A DNA stretch of 64,000 nt from Candidatus Rifleibacteriota bacterium (GTDB taxonomy: Bacteria > Muiribacteriota > Ozemobacteria > Ozemobacterales > Ozemobacteraceae). Location of the stretch: assembly GCA_015233155.1 (NCBI GenBank), contig JADFYG010000014.1, positions 517-64,516 of the forward strand. The letters are read 5' to 3'. This document shows positions 6,077 to 20,885 of this stretch, piece by piece (positions within the stretch are counted from its first letter, which is position 1; every line of letters begins with the position of its first letter). A model generated the notes under the pieces. It was not told where the DNA came from, did no database searches, and saw only the letters and a list, made by a program, of their open reading frames with translations. The translations under genes and the position numbers were made by a program.

Positions 6077-8392
6077 ATGTGGAAATCCTTGAGTCTTAGC
6101 CGCAAGATATGGTTCGGGTTCCTTGTCATATTGTTCTTTCTCGCTTTTGTTGTCATGGATTCACGATTCGGTGTAGAGGATATAGTCGGCAAGGCGAAGG
6201 AGGTTATCAGCGGCAATCAGCTTCGCGCAATCATGACCGAGCGCGAGCTCGATCACTTGCGCTGGGTGAACAAGGTTAATGCGTTGTTAGTCGATCAGAA
6301 TGTCAAAGAATTGCAGGTCGAACTCGATGACCACAAATGCGCCTTCGGAACCTGGCTGTACGGCCCGGATCGATTGGAAACGGAAAGACTCATTCCCGCA
6401 TTAAAAGATCTCCTGAAATCCATAGAAGAACCGCATCAGCTGCTTCACGCTTCGGCGGGAGAGATCAAGAAAGTCTTTCGCAAACCACACTTCGGCCTTG
6501 ATCTTGTGCTCGCAAACAGGCTGTCTGACCATTTTGTCTGGGTAGGAAAAATGGCCGCAGCGCTGGCGATAGAATCGGCAGGCCTTTCATCCTATCAGGA
6601 TCGCGTTCAGGCGTTTTCAGACCAGGCCTTGTCGATCGTCAAAACGTGTGCCGCCGATGAAAGCCTCGGAGATGTGGCTTCGCGACAGGCACGCGCTATT
6701 TCGATCATCGGCTCAATGCGCGGAGGAAGCGAAAACAAGGATTACATCTGGATCCATACTAAGGCCTTGAAGATGGTCATGCATCAGGTTAACCCCGAAT
6801 TAAACAATACGGATGTAGCCTCTTTTACCGATTCCGAAGGTCATAATATGTTCGCCGAGATGAACAAAAGCTGCTCGAGCGGTGACGGTGGCGGCGGCGG
6901 GTTCGTAATCAACAAGTTGCCGCTTCCCGGCACTAAAACAATCGTTCCCAATGTTTCTTTCGTCAGGTTTTACGAACCCTGGGACTGGATCATCGGAACC
7001 GGAATCTTCCTCGATCATGCCAATACCCAGCTCATTGCCCGCACGGAAGCTTTCTCCCGTAAAGAACCCTTCAAATTAGGATTGGTAAGCGATCCGACTA
7101 AATGCAAATTCGGTGAGTTCCTGCAAGCCTCAACGACAAAAGAGCTCCGCGAAACATTCAAGGAGTTTGATGAGGCTCTTACGGCAGTCGAAGAGCCTCA
7201 TCGTAAGCTCCATGCCTGTGCTCTGACCGTCGAAAAGCTCGTCAATGAAAGAAAGACAGGACAGGCAATGCGCATTTACACCGAAGAGGTGCTTCCCATT
7301 CAGGAAGAGGTCAAGAAGCATTTTCACGCAGCCATCGAAGCAGAACAGAAATTGCACGAAGGCAATGCGGCAGCCATGGAGATATTCGCAAAACAGACTG
7401 TGCCCAATTTACAGAAAATCCAACAAATGCTTGCCCAGATACGAACTGTCGCCAAAGAAAAAATGTTGTCCGATGAAAGCTTGATGAAATCGGCCCAGGA
7501 CCTGAAATATAGCGTCACCGTGTCCGGGTTATGCGCTACGTTGCTTGGAATCTTTTTGGCATTCTTCATTGCCCGGTCTATCGCGGCTGTTCTTGAAAGT
7601 GCTATCGCCAGATTGTCAGCCGGCGCTGGCGAAGTGGCTACAGCAGCATCCCAGATCGCCACTGCCATGCAGAGCATGACGCAGGGTTCGGAAAAACTGG
7701 TTACCGCATCGGGACAAACCAGCACTTCTCTTTCAGAAATCCGGAACCAGACCACTCATGCCGAGAAACTTTCCAAAGGGGCGGGTGAACTCATGAAAGA
7801 GAACATCCGCAAATCAGGCGATTCACTGCAATCGATCGTAGAGATGACCCGACAAATGGCCAAGATCGAGACCGACGGCAATGAAATGATCAAGATTATC
7901 AAGACGATCGACGAGATCGCTTTCCAGACAAATCTGCTGGCATTGAACGCCGCTGTCGAAGCCGCACGAGCCGGTGAACAAGGCAAGGGCTTCGCCGTGG
8001 TCGCGGAAGAAGTGCGGTCTTTGGCGCTCCGATCCGCTCAGGCTTCTTCTGAAACGCAAAGACTTCTTGAAGGCACATCGAAACGCGTAAAGACCTCCTC
8101 CGGAACAATCAAAGACATCAATAGCAATTTCGATGGCATCGTCGAATCGGCTTCGACAATGGGCGAAAGACTGGATCAGCTTGCGGAGGTGAATTCCACG
8201 ATCGTGACCGGCATCGACAATATTGCAGCGGCGGCGGATCAGTCCACCAGTGCCATGGAAGGGTTCGCGGCCAGCACGGAAGAAGTCGCGGCATCCGCCG
8301 AGGAACTATCCGCTGAAGCCCGGAACATAGAAGGCCTTGCAAATGAACTTAGTGCACTTGTACATGGGGCAGACGCTGCTACAATAAAATGA
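6077..8392 (+). CDS. Methyl-accepting chemotaxis protein with CZB and Cache sensor domains
   Basis: A 771-residue membrane chemoreceptor. A first membrane segment (about 11-28) is followed by a CZB-like zinc-binding block with H60, C88 ([13 protein letters not shown]), H120 and H124. Next comes a single-Cache-type domain (about 170-315, from [16 protein letters not shown] to [12 protein letters not shown]). A second CZB-like block keeps C343, H375 and H379 but not the first histidine. The second membrane segment is at about 478-500, then the cytoplasmic signalling hairpin with core [20 protein letters not shown]. No clear HAMP domain and no C-terminal CheR-tether pentapeptide were seen. Having the CZB blocks between the two membrane segments is unusual. 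An AAGGGAAG site precedes ATG 6077. Confidence 0.95.
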
Positions 8393-9768: not shown

Positions 9769-11847
9769 TTACTTTGAATTGATAGCTTCGACGGATTTTT
9801 TAGCTGCCTTAATGATAGCCTCGGGAGAAATGTCCGAGCCGACGGCGTTTTCCATCCATTGTTTGGGGGTAAGATAGCCGGCTTTGCACATGCGTTCCAT
9901 CTCTACGCTCAGATTTTTGCCCTTCAGGAAGTCCTCGATCTGATAGCAGATAATGAAGCCAAGCGGATAATCAGATAAATACAGCGGATAAGCGATCATG
10001 TGCGAGTAAATCGCAAGAACCGGACTGTCCTTAATCTTGAAAACCGGCGCGTAATACTGGTTCCAGATGTCCTTTGCGATTTTAATGGTAGCATCCTTCA
10101 GCTGCGCCGGAGTTGCATCTTTATGCTCGTATAGCCAGTTCCAGGCATGCATGTCAACGAGAGCGACCCCGGCGATTTCATACGCTGACCAGAACGTGTC
10201 GATCGTGTTGTAATACTCAACCTTGGGGTCCTTCATCGGCATACCGATGACATCCATGTCGCGGGCCTGAAACACAAATGCAAAACACTCGGTGCATGCC
10301 GAGTTCGGAACTTGTGCGAGCAGGATATGGTCTGAATCGAACAGGGTGAAAGTCTGCTCGACACAGTGCCCAAGTTCGTGCATGGCCGTATTGAAGCCCT
10401 GATAATCCATGCTGCCCTTTGGAACGCGGGTTCGCAGATGGGCCTTGTCAGTATGCATCAGCGCACCTGTGGCATGACCGGCTCCGCGTGCGGGCTCCAT
10501 GACAATACGATCCAACAGATACTGGGCTTTCTCAGGGGTGAAACCCAGATTTTTAAGAATCTGCGGGGCATCCTTTATGACTGCATCGAGATTCGCATAT
10601 TTCTGTCGAATCTTCTCGTTAAGTTCTTTTTCCGGGATCATACCGGAGACCTTGAAACCCGAATACCAGAGATCAAAAGGACGCAAGGGACGATTGATGC
10701 GCTTGGAAATCAATTCCCCTACAGATGGGAGAACATCCGCCGATATCAGTGAGGTCAGCAGGCGTTCCACCTCTTTCTCCGGAATCTGACGTTCCAGATC
10801 GAAGCGCCGATCAATATAGCGGGGATATTTCGGATACAACGGATCGGCCAGTTGCTGCGCATGGAAAATATTCAGGATCTGCGCATAACGGGTATCTGGC
10901 TCCGGATCAGCCGGAAGCGGCTTCCATGTGTCTGAAGCCTTCTCGAAAACCGTGTTTGCATACGGATCCCAATATGTTTTTTTGTTAATGACGCTCTTCG
11001 GAATAGACTGGTCGATGATTCGCTCCATTACTTTGTAAATCATTTCCTGTTTTGGCAATCCATCGGCCTGGGCATACAGTGACGAAAGGTGATCGCGCAA
11101 CCCCCAGTGACTGATCAGACTCAGGTCTTCCGCAAATGGGCTTTTCTTGTCGGCCGTAAGCAGATATCCGACAAAAATGTTGTAATCATTGACATAGGAT
11201 TCGCCGGCTATTTCCGCTTCACTGATTTTTTGCTGAATATCCGAGGAAACCCGAGCCGGGAAATAATCGGCAAGCCGTGTCTGAGCCCATTGATCTCGAG
11301 ACCATTTCGGACCATCCCGGAGTTTGTCCGCAAGCGAAGTCTGCGGGAAATTCAGCAAAACGTAAAATGCTATTTTTGTTTTGAACAGATCCTCCTGAAG
11401 ATGACTGGACGGATCTATTTTCGCGAACGGTTCATCAATAGGAAGTTTATCGCCTATATCGAGGTCGATAGGTTCCTTGACGTCGCGGGTAAGACAATGA
11501 AAATATCCCTGGATCGACTCGATGTTTTTCTCGAAACGAGCGAAGACATCCTTAAGCAATACCGGATCCGAGGCAAAGTTATCCAGACAATACTGCTCGA
11601 ACTCCTGTGCCGTGCCATCTTCGGCCCGCCAGAATGGAGTGGCCTGCGCCACACCACGCTCTATGCGAGATCTGGACGCCTCGCCGAATTTCGCGACCAG
11701 TTTGTCAATTGTCTGTTTCGCGGCTCCCGCAGCAATACCAGCATCAAGAGCAACCGCGCCAGTTCCTACGACTGGTTCCGCCGCTCCGGCAATGCCGGTA
11801 ATCGCTGTAAACGCACAGAGGGTAAGTATAATTGTCCAACGTTGCAT
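9769..11847 (-). CDS. Secreted M3-like zinc metallopeptidase
   Basis: A 692-residue exported protein with a signal peptide (MQRWTIILTLCAFTAITG, cleavage likely after GAA). The HELGH zinc motif sits in AMHELGHCVEQTF, and a glutamate in ACTECFAFVFQ about 30 residues later fits the third ligand of a gluzincin such as family M3. The long helical region before the motif also fits M3-type oligopeptidases. I chose ATG 11847 because AGGAGGCAAT precedes it and the signal peptide starts there; the frame is open 15 codons further upstream. It is the last gene of the minus-strand run behind two sensor kinases, so its expression may be tied to them. Substrate unknown; peptide degradation outside the cytoplasm is inferred. 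Confidence 0.75.
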   Translation of the reverse strand: MQRWTIILTLCAFTAITGIAGAAEPVVGTGAVALDAGIAAGAAKQTIDKLVAKFGEASRSRIERGVAQATPFWRAEDGTAQEFEQYCLDNFASDPVLLKDVFARFEKNIESIQGYFHCLTRDVKEPIDLDIGDKLPIDEPFAKIDPSSHLQEDLFKTKIAFYVLLNFPQTSLADKLRDGPKWSRDQWAQTRLADYFPARVSSDIQQKISEAEIAGESYVNDYNIFVGYLLTADKKSPFAEDLSLISHWGLRDHLSSLYAQADGLPKQEMIYKVMERIIDQSIPKSVINKKTYWDPYANTVFEKASDTWKPLPADPEPDTRYAQILNIFHAQQLADPLYPKYPRYIDRRFDLERQIPEKEVERLLTSLISADVLPSVGELISKRINRPLRPFDLWYSGFKVSGMIPEKELNEKIRQKYANLDAVIKDAPQILKNLGFTPEKAQYLLDRIVMEPARGAGHATGALMHTDKAHLRTRVPKGSMDYQGFNTAMHELGHCVEQTFTLFDSDHILLAQVPNSACTECFAFVFQARDMDVIGMPMKDPKVEYYNTIDTFWSAYEIAGVALVDMHAWNWLYEHKDATPAQLKDATIKIAKDIWNQYYAPVFKIKDSPVLAIYSHMIAYPLYLSDYPLGFIICYQIEDFLKGKNLSVEMERMCKAGYLTPKQWMENAVGSDISPEAIIKAAKKSVEAINSK

Positions 11848-11888
11848 TTTATTGCCTCCTGCCATGGCAGAATGGAATTCAACAGCTT

Positions 11889-13076
11889 TCACATATTATC
11901 AGACTTTGTCTCATTGTTCCCGACCTTTGGAAACACGCAAATCATACGCAAACCAGAAGGCTCGAGGTTTTGAATCCTGACTTCTCCACCCATGGCCATG
12001 ATGATTTTCGCTGCGACCGGAATGGCCAGTCCCAGCTCTTCCGCGAATGACGATGTGCGTGCGGTTGAAAATGTGGCAAAAAAACTACTCAGGGAGGCTT
12101 CAGGAAGGGTGCGGCCATTTGAAGATATGGCCAGTTCCAGATGAGCATTACAAGCCAGGAATGTAATCCGGACCTCATTGCCCGATGCTGACATTTTGAC
12201 CATAGTGTGAATCATTGTTTCCATCGCTTGTTTTAAAAGCGTTTCATCGCCAATAATTGAAGCGTCATTAAAATCCGGCAGAGATAGCGTAATTCCTGCC
12301 TTGGCCGCTATCGGACCAATATTATCAATGGCTGCGACAATAAGCGTTTTCAGCTTGATTGCATCCACCTTCAGTGATGCATCGCCAGCCTGGAGTTGTG
12401 CCAGTCGCAATGCATTGTTCACAGTAGACATCAATCGCTTACTGCTTGATTCAAAGCATTCGGTCAACTCCTCGCGCTCCTTATTATTCTGTATTGAATT
12501 CAACGCAAGCTTCCCGATTCCAAGAATGCCGCTGATTGGAGTCCGAAGTTCATGAGAAATCGCTCGAAGAAAATCTCCTTTTGCATCGTCCAGGACTTTT
12601 AATCGCTCATGGGCGGTAGCCAACTCTCGTGAACGCTCACGAATGAGATCCTCCAGATGTTCGTTGTGTTTTTGAAGTTCGAGTTTAGCTGAACACAAAG
12701 CCAGGTGATTTCGAACTCTCAGCTTGACCAAATCTGAGTTGAAAGGCTTTGTTATGAAATCCATGGCTCCCAACTCCAGACCCATGGTTTTATCGCTATC
12801 CTCAGACAGGGCGGAAAGAAAAATCACAGGGATGTCTCTTGTGGCCTGATTTGCTTTTAATCTTCTGCAGACTTCATACCCATCGATTCCCGGCATCATA
12901 ATGTCCAGGAGAATTAAATCCGGATGGTCAGCGGATTCAGCGACCTTCAGCGCTTCGATTCCATTTTTGGCCACTTTGATCTTGTATTCCGACGAAAGGG
13001 CTCGACCAAGGATCTCGATGTTCTCCAGAACGTCATCGACAATCAGAACGATCATTTTGGGACTGTTTTGTTCCAT
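11889..13076 (-). CDS. Response regulator fused to a histidine-kinase-like module with decayed ATPase
   Basis: A 395-residue cytoplasmic protein. An N-terminal receiver domain has phosphoacceptor D58 in DLILLDIMMPGIDGYE, acid-pocket VDD and the switch lysine in KPF. A coiled linker follows, then a HisKA helix pair with H175 (AISHELRTPISGILG). The C-terminal ATPase-like region has lost the N-box asparagines (METMIHTMVKMS), has no DxGxG box (SSNGRTLPE), and keeps only a remnant of the second glycine box (EELGLAIP). It probably cannot bind ATP on its own. It may serve as a phosphotransfer or regulatory partner of the hybrid kinase encoded 44 nt upstream. No DNA-binding output domain is present. 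Confidence 0.85.
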   Translation of the reverse strand: MEQNSPKMIVLIVDDVLENIEILGRALSSEYKIKVAKNGIEALKVAESADHPDLILLDIMMPGIDGYEVCRRLKANQATRDIPVIFLSALSEDSDKTMGLELGAMDFITKPFNSDLVKLRVRNHLALCSAKLELQKHNEHLEDLIRERSRELATAHERLKVLDDAKGDFLRAISHELRTPISGILGIGKLALNSIQNNKEREELTECFESSSKRLMSTVNNALRLAQLQAGDASLKVDAIKLKTLIVAAIDNIGPIAAKAGITLSLPDFNDASIIGDETLLKQAMETMIHTMVKMSASGNEVRITFLACNAHLELAISSNGRTLPEASLSSFFATFSTARTSSFAEELGLAIPVAAKIIMAMGGEVRIQNLEPSGLRMICVFPKVGNNETKSDNM

Positions 13077-13120: not shown

Positions 13121-16100
13121 TTATTCAATTTGCTTCAGTTTAGCCATAAGTAATTCAAAGGATTCAAGTGCTTCGTCAAATGAATACTGACCGACACTCT
13201 TACCGAGTGATCCAAAATCTGAATGGCTTTCGAGCAGTTTTCCCCATTGTTGCTGAATTTTCTCGTATATATCAGCAGAATCGAAATCATGCTTTTCGAG
13301 GCTGCTCCTGAGGTGCTGAAACATCTCGAAAGAATCCGATAACTTTCCTGATTCATGACGTTCAGCGGGCAAATCGGCAGCCTTCTCCGAACTCCAGTGC
13401 TGACGCTCAACATGCGCAATCTCACTGCAAATTTGTTCCATGCTTTCCCGAAGTTTGTTCCAATTAGTTATGACCGCGCTTTCGTCATTCCCTGAGGCTG
13501 TTTTTTCGAGAAGACCCGCATTCATGAAGACGTCATCCATCCCAAGATTTCCCGCAATTCCCTTAGTGGAATGCGCCAGAAATTTTATCTGATTATAATC
13601 CTTCGCATCTATACAGCATTGCAAATCATGAATGGAAGATTCCTTTGCTCCAAGAAACTTGAGCAGAATTTTTTTATAGCTTCCTGTATTCCCATTCATT
13701 CGATTCAGTCCGGCTTGAATGTTAATTCCAGTAATTGCCGGAAAGAATACTGATTCAGGCTTTGTCACAATCTGTTTTTTCGCTGAAATATGGAAAAAAC
13801 CCTTGAGATACTCCTGAAGTTTACTTCTTAATCCCACCGGATCTATTGGTTTGGCAACGTGATCATTCATTCCGGCTGCAAGCGCTTTCGCCTTGTCTTC
13901 GGCAAAAGCATTAGCGGTCATCGCAAGAATGGGAAGCCCGGCAAAGCGACCATCGCTTCTTATTGCCGTGGCGGCTTCATATCCATCCATTTCAGGCATT
14001 TGTATATCCATCAAAACAATGTCAAAACTCTTTGATGAATTTTTAACAACCTTTTCAACGGCTTCACGCCCGTTTTTTGCGCAATCAACACTGAAGCCCC
14101 AGGTTTTGAGCAACTCCTGCGCAATTTGACGGTTATCATCATTGTCTTCAACCAACAATACGTAACAATCTTTTGACAGACTCATTTCACCCCATTCGGA
14201 AAGTATCGCCCGATAGGAATTGCTCTCTTCTGGAGAAAATATCCTGACAATAGAATCTAAAACCGTTGAACTGGTCACCGGTTTTTCCAAAACATCGTCA
14301 ATTCCGACTGCGAACAACTGCCTTTTTTCATGCTCCGTCAGGGCAGATGCGAGAATAATGACTGCCGGAACATTCTTCAAAGCCAGCTTTTTCTTGATCT
14401 GATCAATCAGAATCAAATTAGCTTCTGATATTTTCTTTTCCTCGAACAGAATAAGTCTGTATGGGGATTCCAGATCATACTTTTGAATTTCATCGATAGT
14501 TTCGCCCGGTGAAGAAACCGCTGCTATTTGAAATGGAAACCGCGCGAGCATTCTCATGACTGTTCGACGCATTACGGAATCAGTATTGACCACGAGCACA
14601 CGAAGGCCCTCAAGAACCTGCGGAATAGCTCTCTTACATTTATTACTTCTGTGATTTATTTTTAAACATACTGAAAATTGGAATAAACTCCCTTTGCCAT
14701 ATTCACTTTCAACACTAATTTCTCCACCCATCATTTCAACCAGATGCTTCGAAATGCTCAAACCCAAACCTGTTCCGCCAAATTTTCTAGTCGTGGAACC
14801 ATCCGCCTGCGTAAATGGCGTGAAGAGTCTGGACTTTTCTTCCGGAGTCATCCCGATTCCGGTATCATGAATGCAGAAACGAAGCTTGATCGAGTCATCA
14901 AACTGCTCGGCAAGTTCGACATCCAATCTGATTTCACCTGATTCGGTGAACTTCGCGGCATTTCCCAGAAGATTCACAAGTATTTGCCCGATACGAAGAG
15001 GGTCCCCTACAAAGTCTGACGGAATATCAGGAGAAAGGTCGACCACGAATTCAAGACCCTTATCGCGAACTTTATGGCTAATAATATTTACGGCGTTGCT
15101 GATGACGTCATCAAGATCAAAATCGAGTTTATCAATGTCGAGTTTTCCCGCTTCTATCTTAGAAAAATCAAGAATGTCATTGATGATTCTCAAGAGAGAA
15201 GTACCGGCAGTTTGAATTTTGCTGACATAATCAAATTGCTTGTTAGAGAGATTGGTTTGCAAAGCGAAGTTCGAAAACCCGATAATCGCATTCAATGGCG
15301 TCCTGATTTCATGGCTCATATTGGCCAGAAACCTTTTCTCAAACTGAAGCGATTTGGAAAGATTATCGGAAGCCATTGCCAGCTCATCGGTTTTTTTTCG
15401 CAACTCCTCCTCTGTCCTTCGTCGCTCCTCCAGTTCTGTTCTTAATTTCCGAACCGCTTCCTGCCATTGATAGGTGCGCGTATCCACAAGTTTTTCAAGG
15501 TTTTCGCGATGAGCGACAATTTCCTCGCTCCATATCTGGGTAGTTTGCAGCATATCGTTGAATCTGTCAGCCAGAGTGGCTATTTCCTGGGGGCCGACAA
15601 TCGGCACCCTTCGTGAATAATCCTTGTCCAGTGATATTTCCTCCATGGTTTCAACAACTTTCAGGACCGGATCAGAAATCGAACTCATCTGGCGGGAAAA
15701 TAAATACGATGCGGCAAAAATGGTCGCGATTCCAAATACAAGTAAGATAACAACGGACTGGATAAAACTGATAAGGATTGGCGAAGTGTCATAAATAATA
15801 TGTACGTGGCCGATCGTCGAACCCTTGAAAGTGATGGGTTCTATGATGGAAACGGTCCGAATGCCTATGATAACGTTTTGCTTGAACAGAATCGGCGAAT
15901 TTTCGGAGACTGTATCGATCGCGGTTTCATCGCGATTGTATCGGGCGAATAACACACCGTGGCCGTCATGAATATCGCCTGAAATGACATATGGCACACT
16001 TTTCAAAGAGGTCAAAATATCTTCAGCAGCTTTTGCGTCGCCAAATGTCAAAGCTGCCGTGCTGTTAGTTCCAACTATTTTCGCCTGGGAGGTCAGGTCA

Positions 16101-16276
16101 TATACAACCATGTTTCGGACGGTTGCTATATCTCTGGCGATGATAAAAATGGAGGCCAGGATTACGACAAAACCTATGGACAAACGATTCATTCGCGAAA
16201 GCAGATTGCGAATGTTTTCTCTCGGTTGTCTGGCCTCTGACCTATCGGCAATGCCGGTCAAATGCGAATCTGTCAT
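13121..16276 (-). CDS. CHASE8 hybrid sensor histidine kinase with REC-REC-Hpt
   Basis: A 1051-residue inner-membrane hybrid kinase. Membrane segments at about 32-48 and 168-194 enclose a CHASE8-type sensor (SQAKIVGTNSTAALTFGD through VLFARYNRDE). A HAMP domain (about 195-250) and coiled coil lead to HisKA with H322 (ANMSHEIRTPLN) and an intact HATPase (N-box NLLGNAAKF, DTGIGM, GGTGLGLSI). A first receiver (about 555-680) lacks the phosphoacceptor aspartate. A second receiver has D757 (IVLMDIQMPEMDGYE), and a C-terminal Hpt domain has H902 (AHSTKGIAGNLG). It overlaps the upstream YfiR-like gene by 4 nt. CHASE8 is the sensor of YfiN-type proteins, which YfiR controls, so the pair very likely works together. 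Confidence 0.93.
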   Translation of the reverse strand: MTDSHLTGIADRSEARQPRENIRNLLSRMNRLSIGFVVILASIFIIARDIATVRNMVVYDLTSQAKIVGTNSTAALTFGDAKAAEDILTSLKSVPYVISGDIHDGHGVLFARYNRDETAIDTVSENSPILFKQNVIIGIRTVSIIEPITFKGSTIGHVHIIYDTSPILISFIQSVVILLVFGIATIFAASYLFSRQMSSISDPVLKVVETMEEISLDKDYSRRVPIVGPQEIATLADRFNDMLQTTQIWSEEIVAHRENLEKLVDTRTYQWQEAVRKLRTELEERRRTEEELRKKTDELAMASDNLSKSLQFEKRFLANMSHEIRTPLNAIIGFSNFALQTNLSNKQFDYVSKIQTAGTSLLRIINDILDFSKIEAGKLDIDKLDFDLDDVISNAVNIISHKVRDKGLEFVVDLSPDIPSDFVGDPLRIGQILVNLLGNAAKFTESGEIRLDVELAEQFDDSIKLRFCIHDTGIGMTPEEKSRLFTPFTQADGSTTRKFGGTGLGLSISKHLVEMMGGEISVESEYGKGSLFQFSVCLKINHRSNKCKRAIPQVLEGLRVLVVNTDSVMRRTVMRMLARFPFQIAAVSSPGETIDEIQKYDLESPYRLILFEEKKISEANLILIDQIKKKLALKNVPAVIILASALTEHEKRQLFAVGIDDVLEKPVTSSTVLDSIVRIFSPEESNSYRAILSEWGEMSLSKDCYVLLVEDNDDNRQIAQELLKTWGFSVDCAKNGREAVEKVVKNSSKSFDIVLMDIQMPEMDGYEAATAIRSDGRFAGLPILAMTANAFAEDKAKALAAGMNDHVAKPIDPVGLRSKLQEYLKGFFHISAKKQIVTKPESVFFPAITGINIQAGLNRMNGNTGSYKKILLKFLGAKESSIHDLQCCIDAKDYNQIKFLAHSTKGIAGNLGMDDVFMNAGLLEKTASGNDESAVITNWNKLRESMEQICSEIAHVERQHWSSEKAADLPAERHESGKLSDSFEMFQHLRSSLEKHDFDSADIYEKIQQQWGKLLESHSDFGSLGKSVGQYSFDEALESFELLMAKLKQIE

Positions 16277-16842
16277 CGTAATACGAAACTAGCCAGACTC
16301 AGCAATTGAGAACTTATTTTCAGATGAGCCTTCACGGCCCCCTTTAAGCTGACCATGAATCTTACACGCTGATTCTCGATTGTGAAGGCGATAATACCAC
16401 CCTGTTTGAGAAAATCTTCACCTTCACCAATGGTCAAAACAGGTTTTTCCTTGATACTTCTTACAATTGATGAAACAGCGTCCGGATCTGAATTAGAAAT
16501 AAACATGATGTGAACTTTGGAAAAGTCCTCATCATGAATCGAGGCTCGGGCAACTTTGAAAGAAATGCCGTCCGGACCATCAGCGGGAATTTCCTGGGGA
16601 AGAAGGTCGCCGAACGGATCATCACCGACCACACAGATTTTAAAAGGAGATGTTCCGGGGTTTAAAACGTCGGCAGGCCACTCTACAAAAGCCGCAAATT
16701 TCAAAATGAAGGCTGCTTTTACCTTATACTCCGCCAGCGTTGCTCCATGTACAGAGAAAGGCAGCATCATGCAAAGATAAAGCATGAAACCAATAGAGAA
16801 AAAAGCGGAAAGCCTCGATCTCTTTTTTATACTGAATTTCAT
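16273..16842 (-). CDS. YfiR-family (DUF4154) periplasmic protein
   Basis: A 189-residue exported protein with an N-terminal hydrophobic signal segment (FSIGFMLYLCMMLPFSVHG). It matches the YfiR/DUF4154 pattern: YKVKAAFILKFAAFVEWP, then FKICVVGDDPFGD, a central VHIMFIS strand, and the C-terminal NQRVRFMVSLKGA. In Pseudomonas YfiR is a periplasmic repressor that binds the sensor domain of the diguanylate cyclase YfiN. Here its start-to-stop overlap (4 nt) is with a CHASE8 histidine kinase, so a periplasmic ligand or inhibitor role for that kinase is inferred. The start codon lacks a clear Shine-Dalgarno sequence. The disulfide-forming cysteines of Pseudomonas YfiR are not obvious here. Confidence 0.9.
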   Translation of the reverse strand: MKFSIKKRSRLSAFFSIGFMLYLCMMLPFSVHGATLAEYKVKAAFILKFAAFVEWPADVLNPGTSPFKICVVGDDPFGDLLPQEIPADGPDGISFKVARASIHDEDFSKVHIMFISNSDPDAVSSIVRSIKEKPVLTIGEGEDFLKQGGIIAFTIENQRVRFMVSLKGAVKAHLKISSQLLSLASFVLR

Positions 16843-17060
16843 TAGAAATTCAACAACATATTACAGAAATTTTGCAAGTTACTCTCAGTTCAAATGTTTT
16901 GAATCAGTGGTGTGCAATGAAAGATATCACTAGATGTCAATTATCGCAAACTTCCTGCAAGCCATTTCTACATGGAGGTATTGAATCGCAAGAAAAGGTG
17001 TATCAATATGCATGCAAAATGTGGTTTACTAAAACGTCAATAATTTCAGGAGACTGTTCA

Positions 17061-18431
17061 ATGAAGCGTATAAGAGCATCTATGCCGTCATTTACATCTT
17101 TTTCCCTCGTTATTTCCACATTTTTTCTGATTGCATCGACTCTCTGCGCTGAATTTCCCGTCGCTAAAACGCGGGATGCCGCTGTTGAGCGATTTCTGCG
17201 GTATGTCGTCATCGATACACAATCCCATGAAGACATAGCAACCGTTCCGAGCAGCATCGGACAAATACAGCTGGCACAGCTCCTGAAAAAAGAAGTAACG
17301 AGCCTGGGCCTTTCTGATGTCCGCATCGATGATCACGGATATGTATACGCAGTTCTTCCTGCAAGCGGAGTCAGAAATCCGGAAACCATACCTACGATCG
17401 GATTCATCTCCCATATAGACACTTCCAATGCGGTCACGGAAAAACAAATTCATCCTAAACTTCATGAAAACTACCAGGGTGGAGACATTAAACTTCCCGG
17501 AAATGAATATCAGGTAATAACGTCAGCCAAAAATCCATTGTTGAAAAAGGCTATAGGCGCAACAATAATAACCGCAAATGGTAACTCGCTTCTTGGTGCA
17601 GATGACAAAGCGGGTATCGCGGAAATTATGACGGCCATGGAGTACTTGATCCAACATCCGGAGATTCCTCACGGCGCAATCAGAATCGCTTTCACGCCGG
17701 ATGAAGAAGTAGATAAAGGTCCGGCCGGCTTCGATCTGAAAACTTTTTGTGCGAGTTTCGCCTACACTGTTGACGGAAGCGAGGAAGGCGAACTCAACGA
17801 TGAAACTTTCAACGCTGCTTCCGCCATTGTTTCATTTCACGGGAAAAACAGTCATCCGGGAAGCGCTAAAGACAATATGATCAACAGTCTGTATGCTGCT
17901 TCGCATTTCATTTCCGCCATTCCTTCAGACCAACGTGCGGAGCATACGGATGAACGAATGGGATTCATTCATCCGTATGAAATCAAAGGGTCAGAAGAAG
18001 AATCGAGCGTAAAAATCCTGTTACGGGATTTCGAGAACAGCGGAATAGAGTCGAAGAAAAGTCTGATACGGGATTTGGAAAAACAGACCAAAAACAAATT
18101 TCCTCAGGTGAATATCGATGTTGCGATTGAGGATACCTACAAAAATATGAAGGTCATACTGGCCTCGTATCCATTTGTCGTTGACTGCGCACTGGAAGCA
18201 ATGAAGCGCGCCGGAGTGACTCCGGTCAGGAAACCCATTCGCGGAGGAACTGACGGGGCCGATTTTTCTTTTATGGGTCTACCGTGCGCGAACATCTTTT
18301 CCGGAGCGATGAATGAACACAGCATGGAGGAATGGGTTTCCGCGAATACCATGGAAAAAGCCGTTGAAACCATAATCAATATCGCCATAGTCAGTGGTGA
18401 AAGCCACTCATCCGCAAAACGCAGTGACTGA
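17061..18431 (+). CDS. pepT: Peptidase T with a predicted signal peptide
   Basis: A tripeptide aminopeptidase (M20B family). Metal-site and catalytic blocks are visible: FISHIDTSNAV, LLGADDKAGIAEI, FTPDEEVDKGPAG, YTVDGSEEGEL and GGTDGADFSFMGLPC. The 456-residue form starting at ATG 17061, after AGGAGA (17048-17053), begins with a hydrophobic signal-like segment (SFSLVISTFFLIASTLCA). Classic PepT is a cytoplasmic protein of about 408 residues, so export to the periplasm is predicted. The frame is open back to 16872, but those codons have no ribosome-binding site. It lies alone on the plus strand, flanked by minus-strand genes for a YfiR-like protein and a TonB-dependent receptor. Confidence 0.93.
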   Translation: MKRIRASMPSFTSFSLVISTFFLIASTLCAEFPVAKTRDAAVERFLRYVVIDTQSHEDIATVPSSIGQIQLAQLLKKEVTSLGLSDVRIDDHGYVYAVLPASGVRNPETIPTIGFISHIDTSNAVTEKQIHPKLHENYQGGDIKLPGNEYQVITSAKNPLLKKAIGATIITANGNSLLGADDKAGIAEIMTAMEYLIQHPEIPHGAIRIAFTPDEEVDKGPAGFDLKTFCASFAYTVDGSEEGELNDETFNAASAIVSFHGKNSHPGSAKDNMINSLYAASHFISAIPSDQRAEHTDERMGFIHPYEIKGSEEESSVKILLRDFENSGIESKKSLIRDLEKQTKNKFPQVNIDVAIEDTYKNMKVILASYPFVVDCALEAMKRAGVTPVRKPIRGGTDGADFSFMGLPCANIFSGAMNEHSMEEWVSANTMEKAVETIINIAIVSGESHSSAKRSD

Positions 18432-18654: not shown

Positions 18655-20700
18655 TCAGAAGAAATAGGTTCCCTTTACACGAAAGGTTCTGCCGTTCTGT
18701 TCAATTTTGTCCTGGATATGTTCTTCCGCTCCGGGATCAAAATAAGTTTTTCCAAAAAGATTGTAGCAGCTCAGCGCAAACTCAACATTTTTTGGACGGT
18801 TGCGATGGGCAATGGTGAAATTGGTTAAAAATACATCTCCTGACTCATTTCCTGCTAGTGTCTTTCTGGTGCTCATATACTGAGTCTCCAGGCCACAATT
18901 GAACTTACTTTGCATCATGGGAACACTTATCAGCAATTTAGCCATACGATTCGGCGAATTTGATAACATCTCACCCGACCGTTGATCTTTGTTGGTTTGC
19001 CATGAACAGTTGAACCGGCACTCCTTCCCGTCTTCCCATTGTTTTTTCAACGAAACTTCCGAGCCCCTGGCTTCTACGGAGTCGAGATTCTGAAAAAACA
19101 TAAGATTATCAACTGGATCGCGAACGAGAGAGATAAGATTCTTTATCTTATATTTATATAAAGAAACAGATCCGAAAAGGCCGTCAGAAAACGTCTTTTC
19201 ATAGACTCCTTCAAGAGTGTCATTTGTTTCAGGCTGTAAATTAGGATTTACCTTCTGAGTCAATCCACCGTCCTGATAATATCGCTCATATCCGTTTGGA
19301 GCCCGAAAAGCCTGGCCGGAAAGCAGCTTTATTACCGAGCTTTTCGCCGGATTGAACACAAGAGCAAAACGGGGATTAGTTCTTTCACCGAACTGGTTAA
19401 GACGATCGTCCCTTATGCCGGCGCTTAAAGACAGTTTTGAACAAATTTTGTATTCATCCTGAATGAATAAAGCCGATTCGAGAAAACTTCGATTATCATC
19501 GAGTTTCTGGGTCAGATCATAGTTTGACTGATTCATATATACAGTGTCTTTAAATTCAGTGCCTATGATGAAAAGATGTCGTTCCCAGCACTTCTTTGTC
19601 CACTGACAGTCAAGCACGCGACGCATGCCGGCTCCCACATCAAAATTGAAGGCATAGCTTGGAGGATCTCCAGCCGCGGCAAAATCGTAATTATACTTCC
19701 CTTGATACTGCGACTTGAATTGATTCAATCGTATGGTCAGATCGCCATTAGTTTTTGAACTTTTCAGATACTGCAAACTCAACAGAGAGTATTCATCCGT
19801 GGTACTGTTTCCGTCAGAATTAAAGACAGTCCCATAAGACCCAGTAGGAATTCCCTTTGTTCGACGCCCGAATGCACCTTCAACGGTGAAATGGCCGCTC
19901 TTGTATTTCAAAAAAGCTTGCGAATTGCCATCATAATCACGATTTTCAGCCACGCCATTATTCGTCGCCGGACTGTTGAACTCAGGGTAAAACAGTCTGG
20001 TCTGACCGGCAGAATCCATGAAAGACGTTGAAAAGATCAGATCCCGACCGGATTCCTGCTTGGGAGCATGGGTGAAACGACACTTGAATGTATTGAAAGA
20101 GCCTGCTTCCCCCGAAATCTCATTGCCCTTTATATCAGAACCTTTTCGGGTAATCACGTTGATGACTCCGAAAAAGGCGTTGTTTCCATACATGGAAGAA
20201 CTGGGACCGCGGATGATTTCTATGCGATCGATCAAGTCGATATCCAGTAAAAATTCTGTACCTATGGTACCGGTTTCATAAACGGGATCATTAACCCTGA
20301 AGCCATCAACAAGCAAAAGAGCACGCGCATTGAAATCTCCGGGCCGGCTGAAGCCTCTGATGCCCAGATAGCTGTAGTTTCTATCATATGAAGAATAAAA
20401 CCCACTTAAACTCTGTAACGCTTCGCCAAGGGTTCTGTACCCGAATTTCCTGAAGTCTTCCGAGGTGATGACGGAAACTGATGAAGGAGCCTGCGATGCT
20501 TTCTGTGAATATTTCGAGGCAGTGGTTACCGTTTCCACTTTGATGTTCATGAGCTCTTCAAGGCTCAGACTCGCGAGACTGGATGTGCTTGTCGCCTGTT
20601 TTACATTGGCGCAGACTGCCACCGCAAAGGAACAAAAAATATAAACAATCATGGCATTGAGAAAGATCTTCCCGTCATGAAAACGCTTATTTCTATTCAT
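18655..20700 (-). CDS. TonB-dependent outer-membrane receptor
   Basis: A 681-residue outer-membrane receptor: a signal segment (about 15-35), a TonB-box-like region (IKVETVTTASK), and a plug domain (about 55-165, with SVSVITSEDFRKFGYRTLGE and GIRGFSRPGDFNARALLLVDG). A 22-strand-type barrel follows, with many alternating aromatic strands, and the chain ends in a terminal aromatic strand RTFRVKGTYFF. I chose ATG 20700 because GAGGCAG lies just upstream. Such receptors import scarce ligands with energy from TonB-ExbBD, none of which is in the window. The SLEELMNIKVETVT type of N-terminus is often found near YfiR-like proteins and sensor kinases, as here. Substrate not deducible; peptides are one guess from the peptidase neighbours. 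Confidence 0.93.
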   Translation of the reverse strand: MNRNKRFHDGKIFLNAMIVYIFCSFAVAVCANVKQATSTSSLASLSLEELMNIKVETVTTASKYSQKASQAPSSVSVITSEDFRKFGYRTLGEALQSLSGFYSSYDRNYSYLGIRGFSRPGDFNARALLLVDGFRVNDPVYETGTIGTEFLLDIDLIDRIEIIRGPSSSMYGNNAFFGVINVITRKGSDIKGNEISGEAGSFNTFKCRFTHAPKQESGRDLIFSTSFMDSAGQTRLFYPEFNSPATNNGVAENRDYDGNSQAFLKYKSGHFTVEGAFGRRTKGIPTGSYGTVFNSDGNSTTDEYSLLSLQYLKSSKTNGDLTIRLNQFKSQYQGKYNYDFAAAGDPPSYAFNFDVGAGMRRVLDCQWTKKCWERHLFIIGTEFKDTVYMNQSNYDLTQKLDDNRSFLESALFIQDEYKICSKLSLSAGIRDDRLNQFGERTNPRFALVFNPAKSSVIKLLSGQAFRAPNGYERYYQDGGLTQKVNPNLQPETNDTLEGVYEKTFSDGLFGSVSLYKYKIKNLISLVRDPVDNLMFFQNLDSVEARGSEVSLKKQWEDGKECRFNCSWQTNKDQRSGEMLSNSPNRMAKLLISVPMMQSKFNCGLETQYMSTRKTLAGNESGDVFLTNFTIAHRNRPKNVEFALSCYNLFGKTYFDPGAEEHIQDKIEQNGRTFRVKGTYFF

Positions 20701-20885
20701 GCCTGCCTCATTGTAATAATCTATAATGCCCAACTTCTAAACATACACTTGGCGCGTTATTTTATCATTAAGTATATGAAAATAACAGCAATTATCCATT
20801 TGGGCGCTGGTGATGGTCTCCGAGGGATTTCCATAGATTACCTGGTGAAATAAAACGAAATTAAACAATTCCCTAAAAAGCCAGT

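Follow-up and report, generated by a model that had tools for sequence, protein, structure and literature searches.

A YfiR-like periplasmic protein and the CHASE8 sensor of a hybrid histidine kinase form a real pair in the window, that is, in the whole stretch of 64,000 nucleotides of a Candidatus Rifleibacteriota contig analysed here, and a TonB-dependent receptor with a distinctive N-terminal signature is encoded nearby (Table 1). It is considered fairly probable that these proteins constitute a trans-envelope relay, in which YfiR and the CHASE8 kinase would be the core and the TonB receptor would play the role of the lipoprotein YfiB. The first-pass annotation of this DNA had drawn an analogy with the YfiR-YfiN switch of Pseudomonas and had proposed a phosphorelay output within an envelope-sensing module; the gene contents, the analogy, the phosphorelay, and the link to the TonB receptor were retained from that interpretation, while the secreted peptidases and an intact REC-REC arrangement were not.

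The identity of the 189-residue exported protein as YfiR/DUF4154 was confirmed by two profiles, PF13689 (DUF4154; E=2.7e-38, 131.7 bits with a curated cut-off of 24.9) and NF053591 (TOL_0243 YfiR-like; 139.3 bits with a cut-off of 125). Its N-terminus resembles a signal peptide; a scan of the genome contigs with the window YfiR as a single protein gave no match. The contact surface of YfiR is kept in this protein (Val160, Phe162, Leu181, and Leu183). Cys70 is its sole cysteine, V110, L145, and A152 occupy the other YfiR disulfide positions, and by residue alignment neither the C71-C110 nor the C145-C152 disulfide is possible. Because both disulfides are missing, redox control of the Pseudomonas type appears unlikely for the window YfiR.

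The gene overlapping yfiR does encode a CHASE8 hybrid kinase, as had been annotated, with Pfam matches including HAMP, HisKA, HATPase, REC, and Hpt; the two open reading frames, both present at the positions listed in Table 1, share 4 bp (ATGA). CHASE8 is flanked by two apparent transmembrane helices with HAMP next to them, and a YfiR homologue adjoins a periplasmic sensor of the YfiN type with HAMP, as in YfiBNR; no solved structures related by sequence to the CHASE8 region were found. According to Pfam the GGDEF diguanylate cyclase output is absent from the window kinase, which possesses HisKA-HATPase-REC-Hpt instead. The phosphorelay part of the HK-REC-REC-Hpt proposal is supported, but its two receivers are a pseudo-receiver followed by a REC: since the acidic pair and the acceptor Asp are lost from the first one (VNTD; LILFEEKK), likewise in three relatives, and Pfam is silent, the alignment identifies this domain as a pseudo-receiver. 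In the REC-HisKA-HATPase protein encoded downstream the REC and the H-box His are intact, while the N-box Asn is changed to Thr and the G1 Asp to Ser, and because of these two losses its ATPase domain is probably inactive; the N-box Asn is retained by ten aligned homologues, several of them from related loci. A gene similar to this one adjoins several related loci, and its product may act as a phosphate acceptor or scaffold.

Table 1: Positions in the window of the proposed sensory module and its parts.
Feature	Position	Strand	Basis
yfiR, YfiR-like periplasmic protein (DUF4154), 189 aa	16273..16842	-	profile matches
CHASE8-HAMP-HisKA-HATPase-pseudoREC-REC-Hpt hybrid histidine kinase, 1051 aa	13121..16276	-	Pfam, alignment
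CHASE8 periplasmic sensor, residues 60-160	15797..16099	-	Pfam, 3.8e-16
AALTF, residues 74-78, equivalent of the YfiN "AAVVF" YfiR-binding motif	16043..16057	-	alignment; motif from PMC3375315
Degenerate first receiver, about residues 553-690	14207..14620	-	alignment; no Pfam match
Canonical receiver REC2, residues 706-820	13817..14161	-	Pfam
Hpt domain, residues 884-949, AHSTKG	13430..13627	-	Pfam, alignment
REC-HisKA-HATPase protein, predicted pseudo-kinase	11889..13076	-	Pfam, alignment
TonB-dependent receptor, proposed outer-membrane partner of YfiR	18655..20733	-	profile match; pepT in between
Receptor N-terminal signature SLASLSLEELMNI	20542..20580	-	PSSM score 33.1

The minus-strand genes follow in the order yfiR, hybrid kinase, REC-kinase-like gene, and secreted peptidase-like gene, the last two (13076-11889 and 11892-9769) overlapping by 4 bp, and because of the common strand and the overlaps the four look like a single operon. 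The product of the peptidase-like gene (9769-11892, minus strand) is a secreted 707-aa protein with a HELGH zinc-protease motif, for which no match was obtained in Pfam, NCBIfam, or solved structures; its homologues were found in five relatives, and since the closest ones lie apart from DUF4154 loci, it was rejected as part of the module. Between the TonB receptor gene and yfiR, on the opposite (plus) strand, lies pepT, a Peptidase T homologue (16872-18431) with a likely start at about 17061 that gives a signal-peptide-like N-terminus, unusual for PepT. With homologues away from DUF4154 loci in one case and the opposite strand in the other, the secreted peptidases are not a conserved component. 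A YfiB OmpA/Pal lipoprotein was not detected among eight neighbouring proteins scanned with profiles. Elsewhere in the window a chemoreceptor (6077-8392, plus strand) has CZB zinc-binding matches (best at residues 60-130) N-terminal of its Cache sensor, which is an unusual order.

The association of DUF4154 with CHASE8 is recurrent. Among 37 genomes of the phylum CHASE8 is located within 6 kb of 21/27 DUF4154 genes and, reciprocally, DUF4154 within 6 kb of 21/27 CHASE8 genes; the two occur together in 16 genomes, neither occurs in 19, and one alone in two (one each; Fisher 2e-8), two very weak partial DUF4154 matches being excluded from this count. The source genome contains two DUF4154 and two CHASE8 genes, every one paired. 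Upstream of its second complete TonB-YfiR-CHASE8 kinase array (L031, G000:C137) lies a divergent REC-kinase gene that shares 35% identity with that of the window. When 84,980 species were scanned with similarity to YfiR as the sole criterion, 80 loci were obtained from Acidobacteria, Verrucomicrobia, Nitrospinota, Proteobacteria, and others, and the pooled, duplicate-free set includes 105 distinct loci with 107 YfiR domains, found by YfiR similarity alone, where absent neighbours are sometimes explained by contig ends. In this set CHASE8 lies within 3 kb of 88/107 YfiR domains and downstream in 86; of the CHASE8 proteins, 77 carry a kinase and two carry GGDEF. An apparent three-way TonB-YfiR-CHASE8 "fusion" (L100) was discarded as an assembly artefact because of the run of N that it spans. 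Failure of the DUF4154 or CHASE8 profiles to match, or lack of co-occurrence across genomes, had been named in the first-pass annotation as evidence against it; both points were checked, and the matches and the co-occurrence are present.

In the study by Malone et al. 2012 (PMC3375315) the contacts were mapped on both proteins, to the AAVVF stretch of YfiN and to a patch of YfiR that surrounds Phe162, and the window possesses the counterparts of both, namely AALTF with Phe78 in CHASE8 and Phe162 in YfiR. CHASE8 Phe78 is the sole residue invariant in 86/86 homologues, while at YfiR position 162 68 of them have F and 18 have L/I, and Leu181 is kept in 83/86. When distances were correlated over the 56 loci having all four parts, YfiR followed CHASE8 with a partial r of 0.55, which was reached by 0/500 permutations; the value was 0.22 (weak) for the TonB receptor and 0.03 for the kinase core, though the core and CHASE8 are one polypeptide. 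Such co-variation, with CHASE8 and without the kinase core, is the prediction for a YfiR-CHASE8 sensor pair that may be swapped between different outputs. The pairing suggested earlier is hence well founded, with strong adjacency and co-occurrence, conserved contact residues, and a specific co-variation of YfiR with CHASE8. It could be argued that the gene order reflects history alone and that YfiR makes no contact with the kinase, as operon adjacency alone is generally known to persist; this is very improbable, given that YfiR-CHASE8 adjacency recurs in many phyla with different outputs, that the contact residues are conserved, and that the co-variation of YfiR is specific to CHASE8 and does not extend to the attached kinase core.

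The candidate outer-membrane partner is the TonB receptor, which in the pooled loci is found within 3 kb of 85/107 YfiR domains and upstream in 79. Nearly all YfiR-adjacent receptors contain the N-terminal signature DLTxLSLEELMxV, within a shared stretch DLTxLSLEELMxVEV, ahead of the plug; an alignment of 42 receptors has nine invariant columns, among them the signature Leu. Using a 13-column signature matrix trained without ten held-out test genomes, 10/10 receptors within 2.5 kb of DUF4154 in those ten genomes scored at least 10.1 versus 2/54 others (Fisher 4e-10; about 30 receptors with weak matches, largely long proteins from two Acidobacteria genomes, were left unscored), and one of the two scoring non-adjacent receptors belongs to Marinobacter, where a DUF4154 gene lies 9 kb away. 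In six genomes of the phylum, which belong to the training set, the signature was present in 13/13 adjacent receptors versus 1/11 others, the window receptor having the top score of these 24, and in 18 DUF4154-free relatives it was present in 0/22 receptors. YfiR-adjacent receptors at loci without CHASE8 (L033, L034, L094, L113, and L134) are signature-bearing as well. In a plug-region tree, from which the signature was excluded, the carriers form two main, related clades and a singleton, and since three changes are needed, part of the signature-YfiR association is shared descent and the counts are not independent events. One signature-bearing receptor (L141, G005:C3:12111) has no adjoining DUF4154 and is a possible unlinked partner; DUF4154-CHASE8 pairs without an adjacent receptor occur in the same genome.

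Additionally, the receptor-YfiR pair of locus L040, from a relative, was modelled by AlphaFold2 as a single chain, where the receptor stop codon was read as Ser as a computational tether only, recoding not being claimed, and the L040 receptor alone, folded from an alignment of the same 42 receptors, served as control. In this one protein pair the signature residues 41-50 reached a pLDDT of 84 with YfiR in the chain versus 58 alone and were placed between disordered flanks, whereas the ten residues after the signature changed in the opposite direction (60 with YfiR versus 79 alone). The gain is consistent with docking of the signature on YfiR and, coming from one tethered pair, is suggestive only.

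In the proposed trans-envelope relay, we infer that the YfiR-like protein would bind CHASE8 of the hybrid kinase via the AALTF patch and thereby hold the kinase in one state, most likely off by analogy with P. aeruginosa. The TonB receptor would substitute for YfiB: upon ligand binding or transport its LSLEEL segment, located just before the TonB box and the plug, would dock YfiR, which would then leave the kinase. The freed kinase would transfer phosphate from His to REC2 and further to Hpt, and the phosphate would then be handed on, perhaps to the receiver of the REC-pseudo-kinase encoded next to it. In P. aeruginosa the YfiB arm binds YfiR in a pocket that overlaps with the site for YfiN (PMC4887326), and by this mechanism the receptor segment would compete with the kinase for YfiR. 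Points that count against the proposed relay are the weak co-variation of YfiR with the TonB receptor, the clade structure of the signature receptors, the position of pepT between receptor and yfiR in the window, and the low scores of the window receptor and kinase with the NCBIfam trio profiles.

Another explanation accepts control of the CHASE8 kinase by YfiR and regards the TonB receptor merely as a co-regulated transporter, for example the regulatory target, with a substrate that the kinase senses, LSLEEL being an unremarkable element of the TonB-box region in one receptor lineage. The grouping of signature receptors in two main clades and the Marinobacter loci, where no receptor adjoins the YfiR/kinase pair, would fit this explanation, which is nevertheless rather unlikely in view of the signature beside YfiR even at five loci lacking a CHASE8 gene, its absence from receptors of DUF4154-free relatives, the invariance of its Leu, and its good ordering by AlphaFold2 only together with YfiR. 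YfiR could also be a small-molecule or redox sensor acting on the kinase with no need for an outer-membrane partner, as P. aeruginosa YfiR weakly binds vitamin B6 and L-Trp and senses redox (PMC4887326); for the window protein, where Cys70 alone remains and neither YfiR disulfide can form, this is improbable.

The relay with the receptor in the role of YfiB can be compared with several known systems. YfiBNR of P. aeruginosa is alike in its DUF4154 protein beside the same periplasmic sensor with HAMP and in the AAVVF/Phe162 residues, and differs in that the window has a kinase relay for GGDEF, a TonB receptor for YfiB, and no YfiR disulfides. YfiR-YfiN cores with sensor-kinase outputs, such as the Thauera hybrid kinase, were reported in silico by Malone et al. 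2012 (PMC3375315), and these divergent pairs likewise join YfiR to a YfiN-type sensor that is part of a (hybrid) histidine kinase; TonB receptors are not mentioned in the main text of that paper. The same three genes are represented in NCBIfam by the trio NF053590 (TOL_0244 TonB receptor), NF053591, and NF053592 (YfiR-associated sensor kinase). Because the N-terminus of the window kinase (134.9 bits with a cut-off of 194, the match spanning positions 2-220 of 223) and the receptor (142 bits with a cut-off of 645) score below the respective cut-offs, they are by sequence more distant members of this trio. In FecA-FecR-FecI an N-terminal segment of the TonB receptor also passes a signal across the periplasm, as would be the case here, but by means of an STN domain, FecR, and a sigma factor, in contrast to the short linear signature and two-component kinase of the window; the window receptor gave no profile match for an N-terminal STN domain, and its neighbours are YfiR and the kinase, with no FecR or sigma partners nearby.

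Thus, the wiring of YfiR to a kinase is not new, being published in 2012 and named as a trio in NCBIfam, while no description of a link between a TonB receptor and YfiR was found in the searchable literature. The present analysis adds a Riflebacteria member and proposes, in the receptor signature, a candidate for the missing input that can be tested. As far as could be found, the YfiR-YfiN switch with a kinase output had been described from sequence only, and it now receives quantitative support together with a testable prediction that a 13-residue segment of the TonB receptor binds YfiR. As a wider and more tentative generalization, which is possible rather than probable, DLTxLSLEELMxV may mark a large class of TonB receptors from many phyla that dock YfiR, replace YfiB, and feed the transport or ligand state into kinases or cyclases by a route distinct from STN/FecR/sigma. 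If true, this would give a signalling role to many TonB receptors of unknown function and would explain how the systems that lack YfiB are triggered.
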